Source: Nephromyces sp. MM_2019 (lineage: Eukaryota > Apicomplexa > Aconoidasida > Nephromycida). Taken from it: a stretch of DNA of 64,000 bases. Shown piece after piece: positions 1-40,635 of the stretch. The stretch covers positions 1 to 64,000 of the forward strand of contig JADHZB010000280.1 in the NCBI GenBank assembly GCA_015657535.1. Reading direction: 5' to 3'. Position numbers and translations under genes: made by a program. Position 1 is the stretch's first letter. The number at the start of each line of letters is the position of its first letter. The notes under the pieces were generated by a model. The model was not told the origin of the DNA, ran no database searches, and saw nothing but the letters and a program-made list of their open reading frames with translations.

Positions 1-83
1 AGATGTTAATTCATCTTGAAAGAAATAGTTTTTCTTGACTCTAGGTCGCCTCAGTTGCTGCGAATCACTCTAGATAAATCACA
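1..83 (-). repeat. Inverted fragment of the BC repeat element
   Basis: Read on the minus strand, this stretch closely matches 2545-2632 inside the first BC element, sharing GGTCGCCTC and CTGCGAATCACTCT with a few substitutions. It is an inverted, partial copy that runs off the window edge. It sits just left of the virus-like pseudogene, so the pseudogene is bracketed by repeat sequence on one side and a tRNA gene on the other. Confidence 0.75.
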
Positions 84-702
84 CAGACCCTATTTTTACC
101 GATCTTGAAAATAGTAATATTGAAGAGCAAGTAGCTAGCACTGGCCCTAATATTGAATCTCTTAGCCTACCAGAAATTATACCCACACTTAACATACAAT
201 ACCCGTCTCCTGCGTCCTCTTTGCTGTCACCCTCTTTTAAAAGACAAGCAGTGGGCATTATGGAAGGCTTTGATCGAAGTAAAAGGGTTAATGATTTGCT
301 AACTGAAATCTCAGAAGTGGCTCCTCACCTCGACTTTGCAATAGCAAATTTTCAGTATGAAGCCTTTGACCCAGAAACTATTCGGCAAGAGATTAAGAGG
401 CTATCAACTGGTAGAAACATGTCCAGAGATGTAGTAATACTCATTGCATGTGGGATATTTTAGGTCCTAATATACTCACATATAGTAGGCGCTTGAAACC
501 AAATAGTTTCAATATTATTAGTGAACTTATTAGAATTTATTCCATAAAGAGGAATATAAATCGTACTGTTGATGATAGAAATACCATCACAATTTCTAGA
601 CTCATGGCCTCCTTTCCTCATATTGCTTCTAAAATGCTGGAAAGGAAGCCAAAAATAGACAATGTAAGAAGCGGCAATATCATGTACCCAGACACCATAT
701 AG
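74..702 (+). pseudogene. Endogenous viral element: phenuivirus-like nucleocapsid fragment with frameshift
   Basis: An open frame runs from about 74 to 463 without an early ATG. A second frame, from about 448 to 702, carries on the same apparent protein. The first frame has an FQYEAFDP motif followed by a hydrophobic helix (VVILIACGI). The second frame opens with a Gly-Pro-Asn stretch and later has a T(I)SR...FPH motif and a YP-containing end. This order resembles the nucleocapsid family of phenuiviruses and tenuiviruses (Pfam Tenui_N). Roughly the middle part of such a protein is present. The switch of frame lies at about 455-465, the C-terminal third is missing, and an unrelated polar stretch precedes it, so it is not an intact viral gene. 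It ends about 25 bp upstream of tRNA-Val. Family assignment is by pattern recognition only. The alternative is a host gene with an intron at the frame change. Confidence 0.5.
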
Positions 703-727
703 TTATGCATCACAAGCAATATGTCAA

Positions 728-800
728 GCGAGCATGGTCCAGTGGTTAAGACGTCTGTTTAACACGCAGAAGGTCCCGAGTTCGATCCTCGGTGCTCGTA
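728..800 (+). tRNA. tRNA-Val (anticodon AAC)
   Basis: A full cloverleaf can be drawn: a 7-bp acceptor stem (728-734 with 793-799, including one G-T end pair), an anticodon arm with stem TCTGT/GCAGA and loop TTAACAC giving anticodon AAC, and a T arm CCGAG-TTCGATC-CTCGG. The discriminator base is A800. A short T run just downstream fits a Pol III terminator. No intron is seen. Confidence 0.93.
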
Positions 801-1008
801 TTTTTATCCTATTCTTTTTGAAAAATAAGACCATCTCAACTGTGAAATTATTTTTAAATCTTAACATTTATTTAAATTGCTTTTGTCAATACCAAAGGTT
901 GTGATTATTTTCAACGCTAATTTAATATGCCATTCATGCACAAAATTTTTTAAACACTTTGTGAGTGGTAAATACTTATAAATTTTTAATAAGGATAAAA
1001 ACGTTAGA

Positions 1009-1089
1009 TGGTGACTGTGGGGTTCGAACCCACGCCTTTATCAGACTGCGGCCTAAACGCAGCGCCTTAGACCACTCGGCCAAGTCACC
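1009..1089 (-). tRNA. tRNA-Leu (anticodon TAG)
   Basis: The acceptor stem is GGTGACT/AGTCACC, the anticodon arm is CTGCG-TTTAGGC-CGCAG giving anticodon TAG, there is a long variable arm as expected for class II tRNAs, and the T arm contains GGTTCGAACC. Length 81 nt, no intron. The A1 repeat element starts about 16 bp upstream of its 5' end. Confidence 0.95.
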
Positions 1090-1105
1090 TATTGTAGATT
1101 TTTTG

Positions 1106-1775
1106 TTTCATCGGGCTACATGAGCAGGTATGGTCACCCGACCTAGACTATAGTGCTAGGAAGTAGATGCGACACCCACATATTTCGGAGGGGACACGCG
1201 ATCAACGCGTAGCATTCATTCAAAGAGGGGGAAAGAAAAACGAGGAAAGAACGTAATTGTGGGTCCCCACAATTACCCCTCTGGTGAAAGATATCTTTCC
1301 CCGCAAACGAGTGGGCCTAATAAACCCCCACGAAAACTACTTCTCACCCCCGGACTGCCCCACATTCCTGAATTATACGAATCTACGTAGGGAGGACTAG
1401 TCCGAAGAGGCAAGATTTCCCGCCACGAAGAGCACAGATCCACAAGAATCCGTGTAACCTCATTACGTGGAGCCCCATTTCAGACAAGAAAAGAGATTTC
1501 AATGAAGATCCCAATTCTTTAGTTTTTTTTCCCTTTTTCTCGTTTACATGCAAGGATATTTCTCGTTGCGAGAAATATCTCGATTTTTCAGAAAGAAAAG
1601 TCTTTAAAACATTCTTTTATAACTTTAAACCTTAAAACCCTTTAGACTTGTATCGCATTCCTACGGAAGATCTAAGTTTGCAGAAAACCAAAGCTATACC
1701 CTGAACCCCGAACCCATAGTGAGTTATGCATGTTCAATTTTAACAAAGCATTTCTTATCTCCAGGTAGTCAACGA
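1106..1775 (+). repeat. Dispersed repeat element A, copy 1
   Basis: This non-coding unit aligns along its whole length with 3407-4052. Shared landmarks include ACCCGACCTAG, the CACCCCCGGA block, the CATTA(C/A)(G/A)TGGA block and the TGCATGTT near the end. The copies are diverged, roughly 65-75% by eye. This copy holds strong hairpins: 11-bp arms around 1253-1276 (GTAATTGTGGG/CCCACAATTAC) and around 1555-1579 (GATATTTCTCG/CGAGAAATATC). It has no usable reading frame. It starts about 16 bp upstream of tRNA-Leu and runs directly into BC copy 1. It may be a solo LTR, one LTR of an A-BC-A composite, or a non-autonomous element. Confidence 0.75.
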
Positions 1776-1789
1776 TAATTCATTTTTTG

Positions 1790-3400
1790 ATGCATAACTA
1801 GATATCCGGCGAGACTAAGAGCAGTAATTCTTCAGTCTTACTAGGCCATCAGACACTCTAGATATGTAGTGTTAATAAAGGCTAGACTTAGACAACGAGT
1901 TGTGTCACGAGAAAGTTAAGCCTAGTATCTTTAATTAAACTAAAACCATAAGGATGGCGAGTAATACGTTAACGCGTAAACAACTAATACTAGAAGATAA
2001 ACCGAAGAGTTTCTTCAGCGCAGATTGACGAAATGGTGTATCCAAAATTCTCCCCCCCAACAAGAAGAATAAAAGAACACTGAAAGACTAATCGAAGAAA
2101 GGAAGCCAGGATACAAGAAAAAGGATAGTGAAATAGATAGAAAACTTATAAAAAATTAATTATTCCTTAGATATAACAAATTTTAGCGAGATTTTAACGT
2201 TTTCTTTTAACTTTTAACTTGAACTCTAAAAATCACATTCCCTCGTAATTCCCAGAAATCACGAAGTTTGATACCTTTCCCGATTTCCTCATATTTACGC
2301 ACACGAATTTCGCTAGTTTAAAATTGAGCTAAGAGTTGCTAGAAATCCGCGCCTAACCGTGAATATTTGCACACACTATAATCTTCACCGCGCATAACAT
2401 TAGTAAACCACTAGAAACTAATATAAAACCGCGCCCTCGAGTCAACTAGCGTCACTTTCACTTTGGATTACCCAAAACTCAATACCTAACCCAAAACTAC
2501 TAGTATCTTCGACGCCCACAAAGGGAACTAATATACGGAACATACTTTGATTTATCCAGAGTGATTCGCAGCAACCGAGGCGACCTAGCGTCAAGAAAAA
2601 ACTAGTTCTTTGAATATGACTTAACATCTTCAAGAGCAAGAAGAAATAAAGAAATAAGATCTTTTTAAGATGATATGAAGAACAAGAAGATTCTTTACAA
2701 GAAGAAAGTAGTTTTGTTCTAAATAATTTTTATTTTAACTTTTTAATTCTTAACGCTTACTCCCCAAACTTTTTACAAGAACCAAGCTTTCGCGCCTAAC
2801 TTTAAACTCCTGAACTTTACCCGAAAAACTAGAACAACATCTAGTTAAGTCTAAAACCTAAAACACGGCACCCAAACACTTCAACGTAGATCTTACACCC
2901 TAAGTAAGCCCGCTAGTAGAATTAGGTTCCACACCTAGCGTTCGTTGTGCCAACCTTAGGCACAGTGAGGAAGAATTAGTGAGCTCTTTAATTCCCCCCA
3001 GAAGAGCTCCGCGGTGTAAAAACAAGAACGAAGAACGATTTTAACTAGAAAATAGATTATTAATAAGAAGATTTAACTATTAACTTTTAGCCCAAGCTTC
3101 CCTATTTTACCCAACGTTTTATACTATTAAGAAAGACTATTTACACGCTAACTAGAACCTAGCATGAACCAATAGAACTTAACTTTCCCACTTTGAAGAC
3201 CGACAATTTAGCTAGAAAAATTGTACTCGAAATTAAGCACGTAGAAGAACCAATCGCGGCCCTAGCGTTAAAATAGTAAATGACTAACTGAAATTATTTT
3301 TGAGTTTAGCACTGGAGTGTGTACTAAGATTAGCCTAGTCGATGAAACGCTAATTCGAAAGACTTCACCCGTACCCACCTCACTACCCAAGATAATCCAA
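1790..3400 (+). repeat. Dispersed repeat element BC, copy 1
   Basis: The left part (about 1790-2540) is nearly identical to 5480-6220, and the right part (about 2930-3400) to 6353-6829, with the same start (TGCATA..TAGATATCCGG) and end (CCACCTCACTACCC.AGATAATCCA). The middle, 2540-2890, differs from the other copy. No protein frame longer than about 65 codons is present on either strand. The sequence is rich in CTAG, GCGC and CGCG words compared with surrounding DNA. The element is flanked by A copies 1 and 2 in the same orientation, so A-BC-A could be an LTR-type arrangement, or a stack of separate insertions upstream of tRNA-Leu. Confidence 0.8.
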
Positions 3401-5392: not shown

Positions 5393-5463
5393 TGCACCAG
5401 CCGGGAATCGAACCCGGGTCACAACCTTGGGAGGGTTATATCATACCACTAGAACACTGGTGC
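5393..5463 (-). tRNA. tRNA-Gly (anticodon CCC)
   Basis: The acceptor stem is GCACCAG/CTGGTGC, the anticodon arm is TAACC-CTCCCAA-GGTTG giving anticodon CCC, and the T arm is CCGGG-TTCGATT-CCCGG. Length 71 nt with discriminator A. BC copy 2 begins 16-17 bp upstream of its 5' end. Confidence 0.94.
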
Positions 5464-5479
5464 TATAATTTTCTGGTTG

Positions 5480-6837
5480 GTGCATATCTAGATATCCGGC
5501 GAGACTAAGAGCAGTAATTCTTCAATCTTACTAGGCCATCTGACACTCTAGGTACGTAGTGTTAATAAAAGCTAGACTTAGACAACGAGTTGTGTCACGA
5601 GAAAGTTAAGCCTAGTATCTTTAATTAAACTAAAACCATAAGGATGGCGAGTAAAACGTTAACGCGTAAACAACTAACACTCGAAGATAAACCGAAGAGT
5701 TTCTTCAGCGCAGATAGACTAAATAGTGTATCCCAAAATCCCCCCCCCAACAAGAAGAATAAAAGAACACTCAAAAGCTTAATTGAAGAAAAGAAGATAG
5801 GAACAAGAATAATATAGAAAAATATAGAAAAACTTTTTCTTATCCCTTAGAGATAACAAATTTTAGAGAGATTTTAACGTTTTCTTTTAACTTTTAACTT
5901 GAACTCTAAAAATCACATTCCCTCGTAATTTCCAGAAATCACGAAGTTTGATACCTTACCCGATTTCCTCATAATTACACACACGAATTTCACTAGTTTA
6001 AAATTGAGCTAAGAGTTGCTAGAAATCCGCGCCTAACCGTGAATATTTGCACACACTACAATCATCACCGCGTATAACATTAGTAAACCACTAGAAATTA
6101 ATATAAAACCGCGCCCTCGAGTAAACTAGCGTCACTTTCACTTTGGATTACTCAAAACTCAATATCTAACCTAAAGCTACTAGTATCTTCGACGTCCACA
6201 AAGGGGACTAATATACGGAACATCTGGTGATTTATATGGGCTTATGGGCAGCAATCAGCTAGGAACGGTTGCATACCTTAGAGCTCTTAAATAGATGGGG
6301 GGAGATGCTAAAAGTGAATCCCAGTTAACAAGTAGCTAGAAAGAATGCGTCTCGACACCTAGCGTTCGGTGTGCCGATCTTAGGCGCACAGTGAAGAAGG
6401 ATTAGGAGTTCTTTAATTCCCCCCATAAGGACTACGCGGTGTAAAAACAAGAACGAAGAACGATTTTAACTAGAAAATAGATCATTGATAAGAAAATTTT
6501 GACTTTTAACTTTTACCCCAAACTTCCCTATTTTACCCAACGTTTTATACCATGAAGAAAACCCCCTTTTCTCGCTAGCTAGAACCTAGCATAAACCAAT
6601 AGAACTTAACTTTCCCACTTTGAAGACCGACAATTTAGCTAGAAAAATTGTACTCGAAATTAAGCACGTAGTAGGACCAATCGTGTCCCTAGCGTCAAAA
6701 CTAGTAAATGACTAACTAAAATTCTCTTTGAGTTTAGCACTGGAGTGTGTACTAAGAGTAGCCTATAGTCGATGAAACGCTAATTCGAACGACTTCATCC
6801 GTACCCACCTCACTACCCGAGATAATCCATCTGGATG
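5480..6837 (+). mobile_element. BC repeat element, copy 2, inserted upstream of tRNA-Gly
   Basis: This copy is a shorter relative of 1790-3400, with the variable middle reduced to about 6220-6350. It is flanked by an exact 11-bp direct repeat, TTTTCTGGTTG, at 5469-5479 and 6838-6848, which looks like a target-site duplication. The element starts 16-17 bp upstream of tRNA-Gly, near the expected Pol III start site. It carries no protein gene, so it would need trans-acting machinery. Candidate classes are a solo LTR of a Ty3-like or other tRNA-targeted retroelement, or a truncated non-LTR element such as those that target tRNA genes in Dictyostelium. Confidence 0.75.
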
Positions 6838-25092: not shown

Positions 25093-27495
25093 CTAGCAAG
25101 AAATCTGAGAGTGCCTCTTGATCTCTTGAAAGTTAAGATCCGAGCTTTCAAAAAAGTCATCTTCTGACTGAGTTAGGAATGAGTGGTGAACTTGTTGGGA
25201 ATCAGTTAAAAATGATTGCCTTGACGTTTTATTCAAGTTCTTATCCTCTCTATGGTAATTGCTGTAATTAAGTGGTTTGTGTAATGCGCTTGTGTGGGTG
25301 CTATTGGCACCTGTTCGTCTAGACAAGTTATTGTCTATTGGATGTGGATATTGATTCGTTGGTGAAATTTGGGGCTGTTCTTCTTGATAAGATGCTGTAT
25401 CGGAAGTTGAGGATTGATCGAAGTGATCTAGTGGGTTAGAATTCAATGGAAATTGATAAGTTGAAAAGTTTGCAAGTTTGGAATAGTACCTCAATAGACA
25501 TTGGAAATCGGAATTCATATGTGTATCTGTGAACTGGGAGATTAGAGTAATTACATCTGGTAGAAAAGTATCGTTTTTTAGGTATATAAATTGGTAAAAT
25601 TTCTGACTCGAGTGTGTAAGTTGCGATTCTAATGGACCCTTAGTTTGTTTGGGTGGTATTGATAAATATTTGGAAAGACGTAGTGTATCGATTGTATTTG
25701 AAAAAAGATTTGAAGATGTAAACTCATCATGTTTTTCAAACTCTAAGTTTTTGTTGTCAGGAAAATTGTTTTCATCAGATTCCAAAGTTATTGCTTGTTC
25801 TTTATTAAATGATGGCGAAGGTAAATTTAAAGTATAGGGCGTGTATTTCATTTTTGTTGTGTGCTTGAAGTACTTCCAATGATCCATCACAATAGATCTT
25901 GGAGGTGTATTTATACATTTTATTTGTTCATAGAGGTATGGAGTAGTAGTTTCTCGCTTTAATCTCATAAATAAATCTTCTTTTGAAATTGTTTTGGGTA
26001 GAATATTTTCTCTAAATTCTTGACAAGGCTCTTTTACATTGAAATAAAATTCTGGGTCAATCATGACAATTGTATGGTTTCTATAGCTCTCCAAAATAAT
26101 TTGACCAATAAAGCAATGAGAAATAAGCTCTTCCAATTTTGAAAACTTGAAAATACTAGGGTTCACGATTAGTTTATACTTTTTGTAGAGCTTCAATTTC
26201 AGCTTAGAGAGATAAATAAAACCCTGACTAGAGGATATTATTAGATCAATTATCATTCGAGACAAATGATGTAAATTTGTGACAAATAGTGGGTCTGTCG
26301 GAAGCTCAGATTCTGAAGAAAATATTTCGGGATCAATAGTTGAATACGCTATCCATTTAGAGCTAAAACTAGGTATAATAAAGTCATTTTCATAAGTCAA
26401 TACCCCATTTAGGATTGATAATTCTATGAAATGATAAATTTCACCTAGAGAGTATTTTTTAAGAAAGGATGCTTCGTGTTTCTTGAAATCTTGTGCGAGC
26501 TTATATCGTGCACTATACTTGCATTTTATACCTTCCTTAAGAGGTATGGATGGGCGTTTTTCTTTCAAGAAAATGAGGAATAGTTCCCAAATAGATTGTG
26601 GAAAACAATTATAAGGATCTTTTATGTCAATCCAACCTTTAAACCAAGGGGGGGTAGATTTTAGATAAATATTCTCAATTGTGCCATCATTAATCCTAAC
26701 CTCATAAAGAGATTCGTGACTAAGGTAGAAAAATAAGAACTGCTCAGAATTAATCATATTATTGTTGGCCTCATTCAGTTTATACCGAATTTCTATGATA
26801 TTAGGTTGTATTCTATCTTTATATAGACCTAAAATAGCCATGTGCAAATTGAATTTGTCTTCTTCGGTGATGTTTTGTGGTGAAGGTGATGTTGGTAATT
26901 TTATCTGATTTCGATAAGTACCTTTATTGCTTGATTTATTATATCCATCTAGTTCATTTGAATGTTTATCATTGCTTATTCCAGTGCGTTTTTCTATTGG
27001 AGTAGTATATATTTCTTGGGGTTGGGAGATGTTGTTCCCATCAATCTTATATGTACCCCTTTTTGATGTAAATCCATCTTTTCCAGTTGAGATATGTGAA
27101 TCTTCTTTATTTGTTATTTTTCGTGGATCGTTAAATTTGGGAGGTCTAATGTTTTGATTTTCATTAGGATTTGTGTAATATGCATTTCCAACTTTAGAAC
27201 TTCTATCCTTTGCATGTATATTTGAGGGAAATCTCGCTTCAGATTGCGAGAACTGCTGTTGATCTATATAGCTTTGAGCTATGTCTGCAATTCGATACGC
27301 AGGATAGCGCAGAGGTATATATTCTCCAGTTTGAGAGTAGTTCAATTGTGATGGTTTATCCCTTGAGTATTCCCAGAAATTGCTGTTATGATAAGTCACA
27401 TTTTTAGCACCGGGTACTTGGCTTCTCTTGTCCATTGGGCGTCTACTTGATTGATCAATGCCCTGATTACCATCTCTTTTCTGTTGGTACTGCAT
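25093..27495 (-). CDS. LOTUS (OST-HTH) domain protein
   Basis: Single long exon of 800 residues starting at an ATG (MQYQQKRD). Residues 1-200 are a Gln/Asn/Ser-rich, low-complexity tail. Residues 205-490 form several winged-helix-like segments. The best, at about residues 408-485, has the LOTUS pattern: a helix (HHLSRMIIDLIISS), a YLSKLKLKLYKKY helix, the KFSKLEELI helix and an IILESYRNHTIVMI strand pair. An earlier similar segment is at about 300-385 (SIWELFLIFLKEKRP). The C-terminal 300 residues are again disordered, and Ser/Gln/His-rich. LOTUS domains bind G-quadruplex RNA or the Vasa helicase and occur in germ-granule and RNA-regulation proteins; apicomplexans encode proteins with this domain. 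A role in post-transcriptional control during sexual stages is inference. Confidence 0.7.
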   Translation of the reverse strand: MQYQQKRDGNQGIDQSSRRPMDKRSQVPGAKNVTYHNSNFWEYSRDKPSQLNYSQTGEYIPLRYPAYRIADIAQSYIDQQQFSQSEARFPSNIHAKDRSSKVGNAYYTNPNENQNIRPPKFNDPRKITNKEDSHISTGKDGFTSKRGTYKIDGNNISQPQEIYTTPIEKRTGISNDKHSNELDGYNKSSNKGTYRNQIKLPTSPSPQNITEEDKFNLHMAILGLYKDRIQPNIIEIRYKLNEANNNMINSEQFLFFYLSHESLYEVRINDGTIENIYLKSTPPWFKGWIDIKDPYNCFPQSIWELFLIFLKEKRPSIPLKEGIKCKYSARYKLAQDFKKHEASFLKKYSLGEIYHFIELSILNGVLTYENDFIIPSFSSKWIAYSTIDPEIFSSESELPTDPLFVTNLHHLSRMIIDLIISSSQGFIYLSKLKLKLYKKYKLIVNPSIFKFSKLEELISHCFIGQIILESYRNHTIVMIDPEFYFNVKEPCQEFRENILPKTISKEDLFMRLKRETTTPYLYEQIKCINTPPRSIVMDHWKYFKHTTKMKYTPYTLNLPSPSFNKEQAITLESDENNFPDNKNLEFEKHDEFTSSNLFSNTIDTLRLSKYLSIPPKQTKGPLESQLTHSSQKFYQFIYLKNDTFLPDVITLISQFTDTHMNSDFQCLLRYYSKLANFSTYQFPLNSNPLDHFDQSSTSDTASYQEEQPQISPTNQYPHPIDNNLSRRTGANSTHTSALHKPLNYSNYHREDKNLNKTSRQSFLTDSQQVHHSFLTQSEDDFFESSDLNFQEIKRHSQISC

Positions 27496-29575
27496 AAGAA
27501 AGCCTAAAAGGTGTCAAACTAATATAATATTTTATAAATAATGCTTCAAGATTTAAAGTTTAAAAAAGACATCTCCAATTTTGGTCATAGGGGACAACAT
27601 CTATATTATTAATTCAAAAAAGAAAGATATAAATCTTCAAAAGATTAGTTTAATTTTGTTTTATATTTATTTGTATCTTAGGTTGTAAGAATTTTTAAAA
27701 TAAGTAGAGTTGGTATGAAAAAATATCAATTAGGTAAAAATGCAACAAAAGTGTAGAACATAGCAACAAATTTAATCACTTTAAGAAACAATTTGTGCAT
27801 TATGGTTTAATAATATACGTAACTAATTAATGCTCAGAAAATAAGTATCAAAAATTAAAATTCACAATGGGCTGCATGACTAACAAAAGGTGAAATGCTA
27901 TAATTTAGTTTAGCTTATAAGAACTAGGAATATATATCAGTGAGGTAGTGGCTGCTGTGTAAAAGGCCAAATTAGTTAGAGTGCTAGTTTAGCATAGCAT
28001 TGTTTGGGCTGCACAGTCTATCTACATCTCTGATTTTTCAAGCTCTTTTTAGCTATCGAAAGCTCTGTAAAGTCCTAAAGCCAGAATATTTACCCTAAAA
28101 AGCCTTTTTCTGAACCAACTTGCCCTGAAAAAGTGTCAGTTTCAAAAGTGCTATTGATACTTTTGGTAAGAGTTTACAACTATTGCATCTAAAAATCTGA
28201 AAGAATGCGCATTAAATTCAATGGTTAACCCAAGGTTATGAAAACACGATTCTTTTCATAGAACAAGGCCTAGCTAAAATTGCATATGGTGAAATTATTT
28301 AATGGAGACATGGAGTCTAATTAAGCCCTAGTCACATTGCTCATATTATTGAATGTTGAAATTTCCTATCAAGGTTAAAGATATACAACATTGGCAATTA
28401 ACTCGTGAGAGTATTTTAATTCACTATCTCTATCAGCTATTACCTAGATTATTTAAACTTACAAGCTCTGAAATGGAAACTGTAAGGAAAGCCAGTACAA
28501 CCATTAATAAAGAAAATGTATAAATAGAAATACTACTTCAATAGGCTCTTGAGGATTGTTTTAATAATTTTTTATTTACCATTATTTAAATAACATTGTC
28601 ATAAATTAAACGTGTAGGTTTGGATTGGAAGCCTGAATCGTTGATTTTGAAGACTAAGTGTAAAGTTGAAAAATTCTCAAATCAAGATAGAGAATAGGTC
28701 TCACACAATCCAAGCCGCACTAAGCACACACCCTCGACAAATTGAGGAACAAAACGTATAGGCTATCTCCGCCCTGAAAATGTTAACCTTATTGATTAAA
28801 ATACTCTATCAATTCACACAAGCTACTTTGGTTATACAGGCTGTTAGTAAAAACCTGATCAAAGTGACAACTGAAGTTGGGACATGGGACTCCTGTTTAA
28901 AATATCCTAGATATCGTTTTCACTTCAGTTCCTTTCGTTTTAAAATCTTCGATTGCTTTTGAAGCTGTATTGATTGTACATGTATTTTATAGGAAAGTGA
29001 CACTAGCGCAACTTTAGTGATTTAACTTTTGAAATTCAGAACTTGCTAGAAATATAGTTTTTATTTAGGGTTAGACAAATTGTATATGATTTTGTAATAA
29101 CTCTGTGCATTATTTAAAGATCTGAAATTGTTAGCTTTTACCTAAATATAGTTTTTTATAGATACATGTGCGTATTAACATTGCTTTAATATGTTAGATT
29201 TCATCTAACCCTCTCATTTTTAATGGAATACTAAATATATAAAAATTTCAATGTGTTAGTTAATGAAACGCTAAATCCAATATCCCTTAAGATTTGAGTG
29301 CAATTTAAGATCATAAATCCTCCTCCTACTAAAAATTTTTCTTTATGATTTTACAAGCAATTATTGCTTCTGAAAGTTGTTTTAAGTAATTGATCCTATT
29401 TAAGCCAAGTTTTGAAATTGTATGAAAATAAATCTGAAAATTTGCTTCATTCTACCTTGCTGAAGTAGATTAGATTAATTATCAATTTTTTTAATTTGCT
29501 TGTTAACAAATTAGATAGATCATCAAAACAATTGGTATAAAACGCATTAAATAACCTTGCCAACCCCAGGAAAAT
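27496..29575. other. Intergenic spacer, divergent promoter region
   Basis: AT-rich. Between 27890 and 28140 there is a somewhat less AT-rich stretch with GCTGC and CTAAAG repeats. Nothing codes convincingly; a 60-codon frame at 28780-28962 has no support. It lies between the 5' ends of two divergent genes. Confidence 0.45.
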
Positions 29576-39121: not shown

Positions 39122-39709
39122 GTTTCCTACTTTATTAGGAAATTTCATTTTTTTTATTCGAATACTAAACAATTTTTGATACTTTACTATATACGATGTG
39201 CGAAAACTGTGTTACTTATTTTTATCCATTAAGTATCTTATCCATTTATAATCTTGAAAATTATTGGTAAAATTGCTGCGCTCATTAAGCTTTTCGACAC
39301 TCAATTTTTTAGATTATCCAAAATCGTTAGCATTTCAAAGTTAAATTATCATAAATTTTAGATAAGTAATTAAATTGTATAACTAAAATCATAAAGTGTG
39401 ATATTGCTTTTTCAGCATCTTTCTTAATCTGAAGCTATTTGTACCACTGGGCTGAAAAGATCTATTAAAAAAGCTTTCGACACTTGATAATAATTGAATT
39501 CCATAGTTATTTTATACACCAAATTTAACTTGATAAGACTTAAAACAAGACAGAATTTAAAAATACACTCCCCACAGGTGTTGAAATTTAGGATTTCTAG
39601 AGTATTGAATTAAATCTCGAGTGAAAATATAGCTTTAGGAGATTTAAAATTTATTTTCTGATTATTGAAATAAAAGCAATAATCTACAGTAGCTGTATGT
39701 TTAATTAAG
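39122..39709. other. Intergenic spacer, p28 promoter region
   Basis: AT-rich, no gene seen. It precedes the p28 start and should hold its promoter. Confidence 0.5.
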
Positions 39710-40635
39710 ATGTTGGATCAATTAGATTCAGACACCTTGAGAGATTGGTTTTTAGAGCGTCAGTCACCAATACAAGTCACCAAAGAAGAAAGCATTAAGC
39801 CCGTATACCTTGGTTCCTCAATAAGGCAACCATCGACCATTTCAATAAGAAACTCGGATCGTGTTAAACATAAAACGTTTAAAAACTTGAACTCAAAAAT
39901 TTACCAAAAAGAATCAAAAATTCTTGATCAAATATTTCCCAAAAAAATTTTTGTTAAAAATAACCAATTATATGAGGCGAAGGTAAGCTTTGTTCCAGCT
40001 AATTTAACAAAGCTCATCTCAATAGAAAATGAGTTATACACCAAATTGCAAGCTTCAAAGGCCAAAGAAATAGGCATATGCCAAACTAGGAGGACTATTT
40101 TTAGTAGATTTTTGGATGAACTCATCCGGCAGGTTAACAATTCAATTACTAGTTTAAATTACTTTTAAAAACAAATTGCTTTATAGGAATTGATTGTATC
40201 CAGTGGAAGGGGCCTATTACTGATGTATTTGAAGCTAGAACTCGAAGATCAATTAAATTCGTATCAACGAGCTTTGAGCTCCTCTTTGAATTATGGTATC
40301 AGGAAAGCATGCTCATTAGATAAAAGAAAACTTGAGCTGCAAAATAAAAAAGTAGATCTAATGGTAAAAATAAAAAATAAGGCAGCAAATATTAAAGATA
40401 AGTCAGAATTCCTAAATACACAAGCCCAACCATCAGGGAAGAAGAAATACGAGGTTTGAAACAGTGCTCCATTGGGAGTAGTTAATGGAGCTTTGGCTAA
40501 TAGTGCTGGTCCTTATCCTTCATTTCTTGTTAGGTTTTGAAAGAATTTCAAGACAAAATAAGTGAAAATAAAAAGATGTTACAAACTTATAAGTTAAAAA
40601 TTGAAGAAATGATTTCAAACACGGATCATGAATAA
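39710..40635 (+). CDS. DNALI1: Axonemal inner-arm dynein light chain p28
   Basis: Three exons (39710-40132, 40187-40453 and 40534-40635) give 263 residues, close to the usual 240-260 for this family. The family core is clear: a region ending KAKEIGICQTRRTIFSRF, then LDELIRQ exactly at the first splice junction, then a GRGLLLMYL segment, QRALSSSLNYGIRKA, and a long C-terminal coiled coil rich in Lys and Glu. p28 is the light chain shared by several single-headed inner dynein arms and binds actin and the dynein heavy-chain tail in the axoneme. Only organisms that build a motile flagellum keep it. The N-terminal 60 residues are polar and divergent. Introns are 54 and 80 nt. Confidence 0.92.

Follow-up and report, generated by a model that had tools for sequence, protein, structure and literature searches.

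Does the beginning of this contig hold the remains of a negative-strand RNA virus and, if it does, by what route did the viral sequence reach its present place? To our knowledge, the entry of such viruses into nuclear genomes is still mostly a matter of guesswork. The window analysed here is the whole 64,000-nt stretch deposited for Nephromyces sp. MM_2019 (contig JADHZB010000280.1, positions 1 to 64,000 of the forward strand), and the sequence in question stands at its very start. In our judgement, the insert very probably derives from a phenui/tenui-like negative-strand RNA virus. The whole account, in which a viral nucleocapsid fragment was placed by tRNA-targeting retroelement machinery, appears to us evenly poised between right and wrong once the mechanism is included.

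Two overlapping open frames lie on the + strand, at 74-463 (frame 1, 129 aa) and 415-702 (frame 2, 95 aa). Separate Pfam-A scans of the two frames (24,736 models, E up to 10) returned one family per frame, Tenui_N (PF05733) in both cases: frame 1 matches columns 22-57 of 224 (19.3 bits, E 0.0009) and frame 2 columns 77-121 of 224 (16.1 bits, E 0.009), both scores lying below the curated cut-off of 25 bits. The family is absent from three other frames of the stretch (antisense 82-321, antisense 463-702 and + 135-299). The two matches are collinear and have the right spacing for one gene, with 56 nt between the matched nucleotides (Table 1) versus 19 profile columns. A preliminary description had recognised, in the right order, features resembling those of a phenui- or tenuivirus nucleocapsid in these two frames and had proposed searching each separately with this profile; the separate searches are positive for both frames at the sub-threshold scores given.

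Since the 56-nt gap fits 19 profile columns, the frame change falls within 446-501, an interval that contains the frameshift placed earlier at about 455-465. Two outcomes that would speak against the viral reading, a match to a different family and an intron at the frame change, were looked for: Tenui_N is the only family per frame, and the intron was rejected because the distance between the matches is what the profile gap requires, leaving no room for one. At the C-terminal end, about 84 of the 224 Tenui_N columns are missing by count, that is, about one third, in agreement with the truncation first described. Lacking the full-length domain of about 224 columns, the sequence is classed as a fragment and not as a nucleocapsid gene. 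Single-sequence structure models (mean pLDDT 48.4 and 40.6 for the two frames) were too poor for a fold search. We claim no present function for the fragment, which the frame change and the lost C-terminal third leave dead.

The extent proposed at the outset, 74-702, holds for its core and fails at both edges, where 74-81 belongs to host repeat X and 700-702 to host repeat A; the viral-like part covers about 82-699 (~618 nt). As the apparent stop of frame 2 belongs to repeat A, the viral-like frame itself runs without a stop as far as the junction. The A terminus at 700-712 is exact and reads TGATGCATAACTA on the opposite strand. In 241,631 bp from loci chosen for holding A or B, this 13-mer, one mismatch being allowed, occurs at 15 places, comprising 13 ends of A copies and the present junction on two contigs; given that choice of loci, the count is not genome-wide.

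The window forms the start of contig C144. A second contig, C143 (34,104 bp), ends after reverse complementation in the identical 720 nt, and this exact overlap (window 1-720, C143:1-720) was left unmerged by the assembler. The left flank was read from the first 10 kb of C143, into which the tail of X runs on leftwards; copies of X are also found in other loci. C144 alone has 81 nt of X to the left of the insert and, to its right, the A terminus, tRNA-Val and further elements; in this one assembly, host DNA flanks the insert on both sides, the arrangement that the preliminary description had wanted confirmed with long reads. Virus-derived sequence with host DNA on both sides, as expected of an endogenous viral element (EVE), is present on C144 and on the overlapping contig, and the insert can be regarded, on sequence grounds, as a putative EVE holding the 5′ portion of the mRNA or antigenome for a nucleocapsid. 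A reading as two genomic copies, on C143 and on C144, was set aside in favour of one locus on overlapping contig ends, which is simpler; a true duplicate could still exist.

Table 1. Features at the putative viral insert and in the neighbouring tRNA-anchored stacks (window coordinates)
Feature	Position	Strand	Remarks
Tail of host repeat X	1..81	+	Ends GATAAATCA at 73-81; 90% identical to 2629-2548 over 82 nt
5′ part of viral-like insert	82..259	+	No ATG before 260 in any + frame; frame 83 without stops
Nucleocapsid-like frame 1, first ATG to stop	260..463	+	Tenui_N match 338-445
Nucleocapsid-like frame 2, open to repeat A junction	415..699	+	Tenui_N match 502-642; without C-terminal third
13-nt terminus of host repeat A, TAGTTATGCATCA	700..712	+	Its bases 700-702 form the apparent stop of frame 2
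15-bp gap, element terminus to tRNA gene	713..727	.	713-717 is the 5-nt spacer position
tRNA-Val (AAC)	728..800	+	
tRNA-Leu (TAG), anchor of second stack	1009..1089	-	
tRNA-anchored element "Leu"	1104..1782	-	
Element A copy	1788..2542	-	
Element X copy	2548..2931	-	
Truncated element B copy	2932..3399	-	
tRNA-Gly (CCC), anchor of third stack	5393..5463	-	
Element A copy	5478..6222	-	Terminus 14 bp from tRNA-Gly
Element B copy	6228..6829	-	TCTGG on both sides

How far the locus stands alone was addressed with the profile and with the frames themselves. In a six-frame Tenui_N search of the 48.3 Mb genome (E ≤ 10), only this locus was found, on the two overlapping contig ends, and it was listed by frame 1 alone; none of 14 control genomes gave a match (0/14), the controls, where named elsewhere, being prokaryotes. 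As a protein query against its own genome, frame 1 returned this locus only, and frame 2 returned it on the two overlapping contig ends together with one chance-level match (E 1.68, 25% identity). Against PDB sequences (E ≤ 10), frame 1 has 18 listed matches, of which 6 are to nucleoprotein/NP protein and 12 to antibody chains; the best, 4csf_E, is weak (E 0.33). The nucleoproteins matched are presumably those of phenuiviruses. Frame 2, searched against the same sequences at the same threshold, matched two unrelated proteins and no nucleoprotein. No relative of either frame was found in IMG/VR or among 5.8 billion proteins, a collection whose length limits exclude full-length relatives of a piece. 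A search for a bunyaviral polymerase elsewhere in the genome (E ≤ 1) gave no match, and neither did its control, so that absence is not established. As a family-level name for the viral lineage, "phenuivirus" is that of the nearest Pfam model.

The upstream part of the insert admits two readings. The earliest ATG among its + frames stands at 260, and by the PDB alignment the protein starts within a few residues of this codon. An ATG-free 82-259 was seen in 1518 of 20,000 dinucleotide shuffles, and a stop-free frame 83 in 303 of 20,000 dinucleotide and 699 of 20,000 mononucleotide shuffles. The absence of ATG favours an mRNA leader, and the stop-free frame favours an N-terminal extension.

The left junction bears on where the viral sequence begins. 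Positions 81-90 read ACACAGACCC, and phenuivirus segments carry the terminal motif ACACAAAG, as given in the parts of the sources consulted (PMC10496375, PMC5552725). Agreement is confined to the first five bases, of which the very first is also the last base of repeat X; a viral terminus at this place is a lead that we did not count. The bases at 82-86 (CACAG) occupy the expected 5-nt spacer position. This far end of the insert has neither a TG/CA terminus nor a clean target duplication. A candidate duplication, ATCACA (78-83 and 709-714), was not counted because X and A end alike over most of its length.

The insert stands among repeats of several kinds, A (745-755 nt), X (about 400 nt), B (about 600 nt) and others, which start with TG, end with CA and are stacked behind tRNA genes with 5-nt spacers. 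A repeat search with one compact copy found at least 39 places in the genome, and twenty stretches (loci L038-L057) were read for repeat structure. The tRNA genes with stacks are of many isotypes, and the spacers within one stack are near-identical. The window and the examined stretches hold 23 predicted tRNA genes, of which 17 were measured and the other 6, having no recognised terminus, were not counted; the element terminus lies 12-15 bp upstream of the tRNA gene in 17 of 17, tRNA-Val here (15 bp) being one of them. Both ends were recognised in 31 copies belonging to A, B or X; the paired 5-nt spacers are identical in 7, differ by a single letter in 12 and agree at fewer than 4 letters in the remaining 12. 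Likeness at 4-5 of 5 was observed in 19 of the 31, versus a mean of 3.5 and a maximum of 11 with random partners (10,000 shuffles).

For A, X and B, two marks of tRNA-targeting LTR retrotransposons were found, a fixed short upstream distance and TG...CA ends with a 5-nt target duplication. Insertion of the integrase type, held at a constant distance from Pol III genes, would leave such a pattern of repeats, and the stacks of A, X and B may represent a Ty3-like tRNA-targeting system. In the parts of the sources consulted (PMC5911963, PMC5006619), yeast Ty3 and Dictyostelium DGLT-A are described as inserting about 15 bp upstream of tRNA genes, and DGLT-A as leaving solo terminal repeats there and as occurring in either orientation. 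With these elements (PMC5911963, PMC5006619), A, X and B have the upstream tRNA distance in common; they differ in that no reverse transcriptase or integrase is tied to them here, and in that the 16 A starts whose terminus is intact face the tRNA without exception, in contrast to the two orientations of DGLT-A.

Reverse transcriptase and integrase genes are present in the genome, at six places each (E ≤ 0.001 and E ≤ 0.1, respectively). None of the 13 loci around these places contains a tRNA gene, and at the nucleotide level none resembles A, X, B or the insert, apart from a single 16-nt match to element Leu. Another locus, L051:3421-4560, holds an A-ended element of 1140 nt at tRNA-Val(CAC): A ends of 278 and 69 nt (both 91% identical) surround ~790 nt with a gag-like frame for a coiled protein, which runs toward the tRNA in the same orientation as the viral-like insert. 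On contig C328, a frame that neighbours a reverse transcriptase is 44% identical to residues 110-206 of this gag-like protein; L051 carries the gag-like frame only. More than anything, L051 resembles an A-ended element that lacks repeated ends, with A as a putative LTR. We take the direction of A from the gag-like frame of this one locus.

Read outward from tRNA-Val, the stack consists of GCTTG, the 13 nt of A with the viral-like DNA in antisense, CTGTG, X, TTTTT, B, TTTTT and older elements. By this order, the viral-like DNA occupies one slot of the tRNA-Val stack, with a canonical end on the tRNA side. The 5-mers flanking the slot, GCTTG and CTGTG, are alike at 2 of 5 letters, and the stack neighbours have TTTTT. 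Elsewhere in the genome, G000:C40:17525-18367 contains tRNA-Val-like and tRNA-Leu-like matches in the same order as window 728-1089 and is a possible paralogous site.

The position of the insert in the landing spot of the elements suggests that element enzymes copied and placed the viral sequence. In such a scheme, a retroelement reverse transcriptase would start the minus strand at the 3′ end of an A-type element, copy 13 nt and then switch template to a viral plus-sense RNA inside the nucleocapsid frame, continuing until it had reached, or nearly reached, the 5′ end of this RNA. A tRNA-seeking integrase would position the chimeric DNA by the one end that was proper, and repair would join the far end to the tip of X. 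Read in sense orientation, the chimera consists of the viral 5′ part followed by the last 13 nt of A. A template switch 13 nt into A would explain the sense orientation, the lost C-terminal third, the kept 5′ part and the single correct terminus, and one-ended integration with repair at the other end would explain the kept tRNA distance together with the missing clean duplication. We put forward this one-step chimera, comprising element-primed DNA, a switch after 13 nt to the nucleocapsid mRNA and delivery to the tRNA gene by integrase, as a tentative hypothesis in which our confidence falls somewhat short of even. Chimeras of arenavirus RNA with a mouse LTR element are reportedly on record. 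The earlier argument that a negative-strand RNA virus needs reverse transcription to enter a genome gains support, because the insert sits in a tRNA-anchored slot of retroelement-like repeats.

In favour of the account speak the collinear Tenui_N matches, the single genomic locus, the exact A terminus, the 15-bp tRNA gap, the stack of X, B and older elements behind it with 5-nt spacers, the likeness of paired spacers among the A, B and X copies, the reverse transcriptase and integrase genes of the genome, and the A-ended element at L051 with its gag-like frame in the same orientation. Against it stand the Pfam scores below the cut-off, the weak PDB matches, the lack of a close relative, the non-canonical far end, the unlike spacers, the dissimilarity of the reverse transcriptase and integrase loci to A, X and B, a direction of A taken from a single locus, and the putative standing of A as an LTR.

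The rival that survives best treats the viral fragment as filler DNA. A copy of A at tRNA-Val would have been broken to its last 13 nt, the break perhaps joining two stacks, and free viral cDNA, perhaps made by any reverse transcriptase, would have been captured in repair. This would fit a far end without an element terminus and flanking 5-mers that match neither each other nor the TTTTT beyond X, and truncation is seen in other stack copies, such as B at 2932-3399. However, it requires a break that happened to fall at the very tip of X, or next to it, and a viral piece that replaces just one slot, and it leaves the kept 5′ part and the cut 3′ part of the gene to chance. We consider capture during repair unlikely, and an improbable alternative denies the viral origin itself. 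In that case, the frames would be a diverged gag or some other gene of the tRNA-anchored elements, resembling Tenui_N by chance, as might be imagined from matches that are each weak alone and under the cut-off and from the gag-like frame that L051 carries in a corresponding position and the same orientation. Nevertheless, two collinear, rightly spaced matches to one model are not readily expected of it, the insert sequence is single in the genome whereas the elements are many, and a gag of the local elements was rejected as a candidate for the frames, the gag-like protein of L051 having no blastp similarity to either of them at E ≤ 10. An assembly artefact, in which viral or other reads were misjoined to host repeats, would suit two contigs that both end here with an unmerged overlap of exactly 720 nt, but is highly improbable given that both junctions are identical on the two contigs letter for letter, that the insert meets the element terminus exactly and keeps the usual tRNA distance, and that the broken frame is that of an old copy, unlike a circulating virus.

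Three observations concern other genes. A frame of 806 aa at 25096-27513 (- strand) of the window contains DUF7602, OHA and a weak OST-HTH match, and a protein search gave no relative for it at E ≤ 0.001. An axonemal dynein light chain fragment at 39683-40165 (+ strand) implies that the host probably builds flagella or cilia. The ribosomal L3 gene of the genome matches in several pieces.

Returning to the viral fragment and its proposed delivery by tRNA-targeting elements, we compared it with known cases, each described here from the consulted part of its source. The tick Ixodes scapularis harbours phlebovirus-related nucleoprotein EVEs, and its RNA-virus EVEs fit mRNA integration (PMC2987831). 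Like the insert studied here, they are phenui-type nucleoprotein fragments in a nuclear genome; unlike it, they occur in an animal, and neither tRNA genes nor a retroelement terminus is mentioned in the consulted part of that paper (PMC2987831). In the nematode Bursaphelenchus xylophilus, a nodavirus-like element lies in an LTR retrotransposon and was read by its authors as captured (PMC5177903). Both cases tie a non-retroviral RNA-virus sequence to a retroelement (PMC5177903). The nematode element is whole, with two LTRs and pol around the polymerase-like gene (PMC5177903), whereas here a 13-nt terminus is present on one side and the site is tRNA-anchored. Leishbuviridae, relatives of Phenuiviridae, infect trypanosomatids (PMC10496375); they resemble the proposed virus in being phenuivirus-related and in having single-celled hosts, and differ from it in being exogenous (PMC10496375). 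Among the titles and abstract beginnings of openly licensed literature, we found no RNA-virus fossil in a tRNA-anchored slot, which is no proof of absence.

The exact element terminus, the fixed tRNA distance and the slot between stacked elements make one route of entry concrete and testable. If the host is a protist, as the preliminary description took it to be, the fragment documents that a bunya-like virus once infected its lineage. If the one-step chimera is true, tRNA-targeting elements would be a gene-safe door for the archiving of RNA viruses in small eukaryotic genomes, and the sequence immediately upstream of tRNA genes, wherever a genome has elements of this type, may hold more such fossils.
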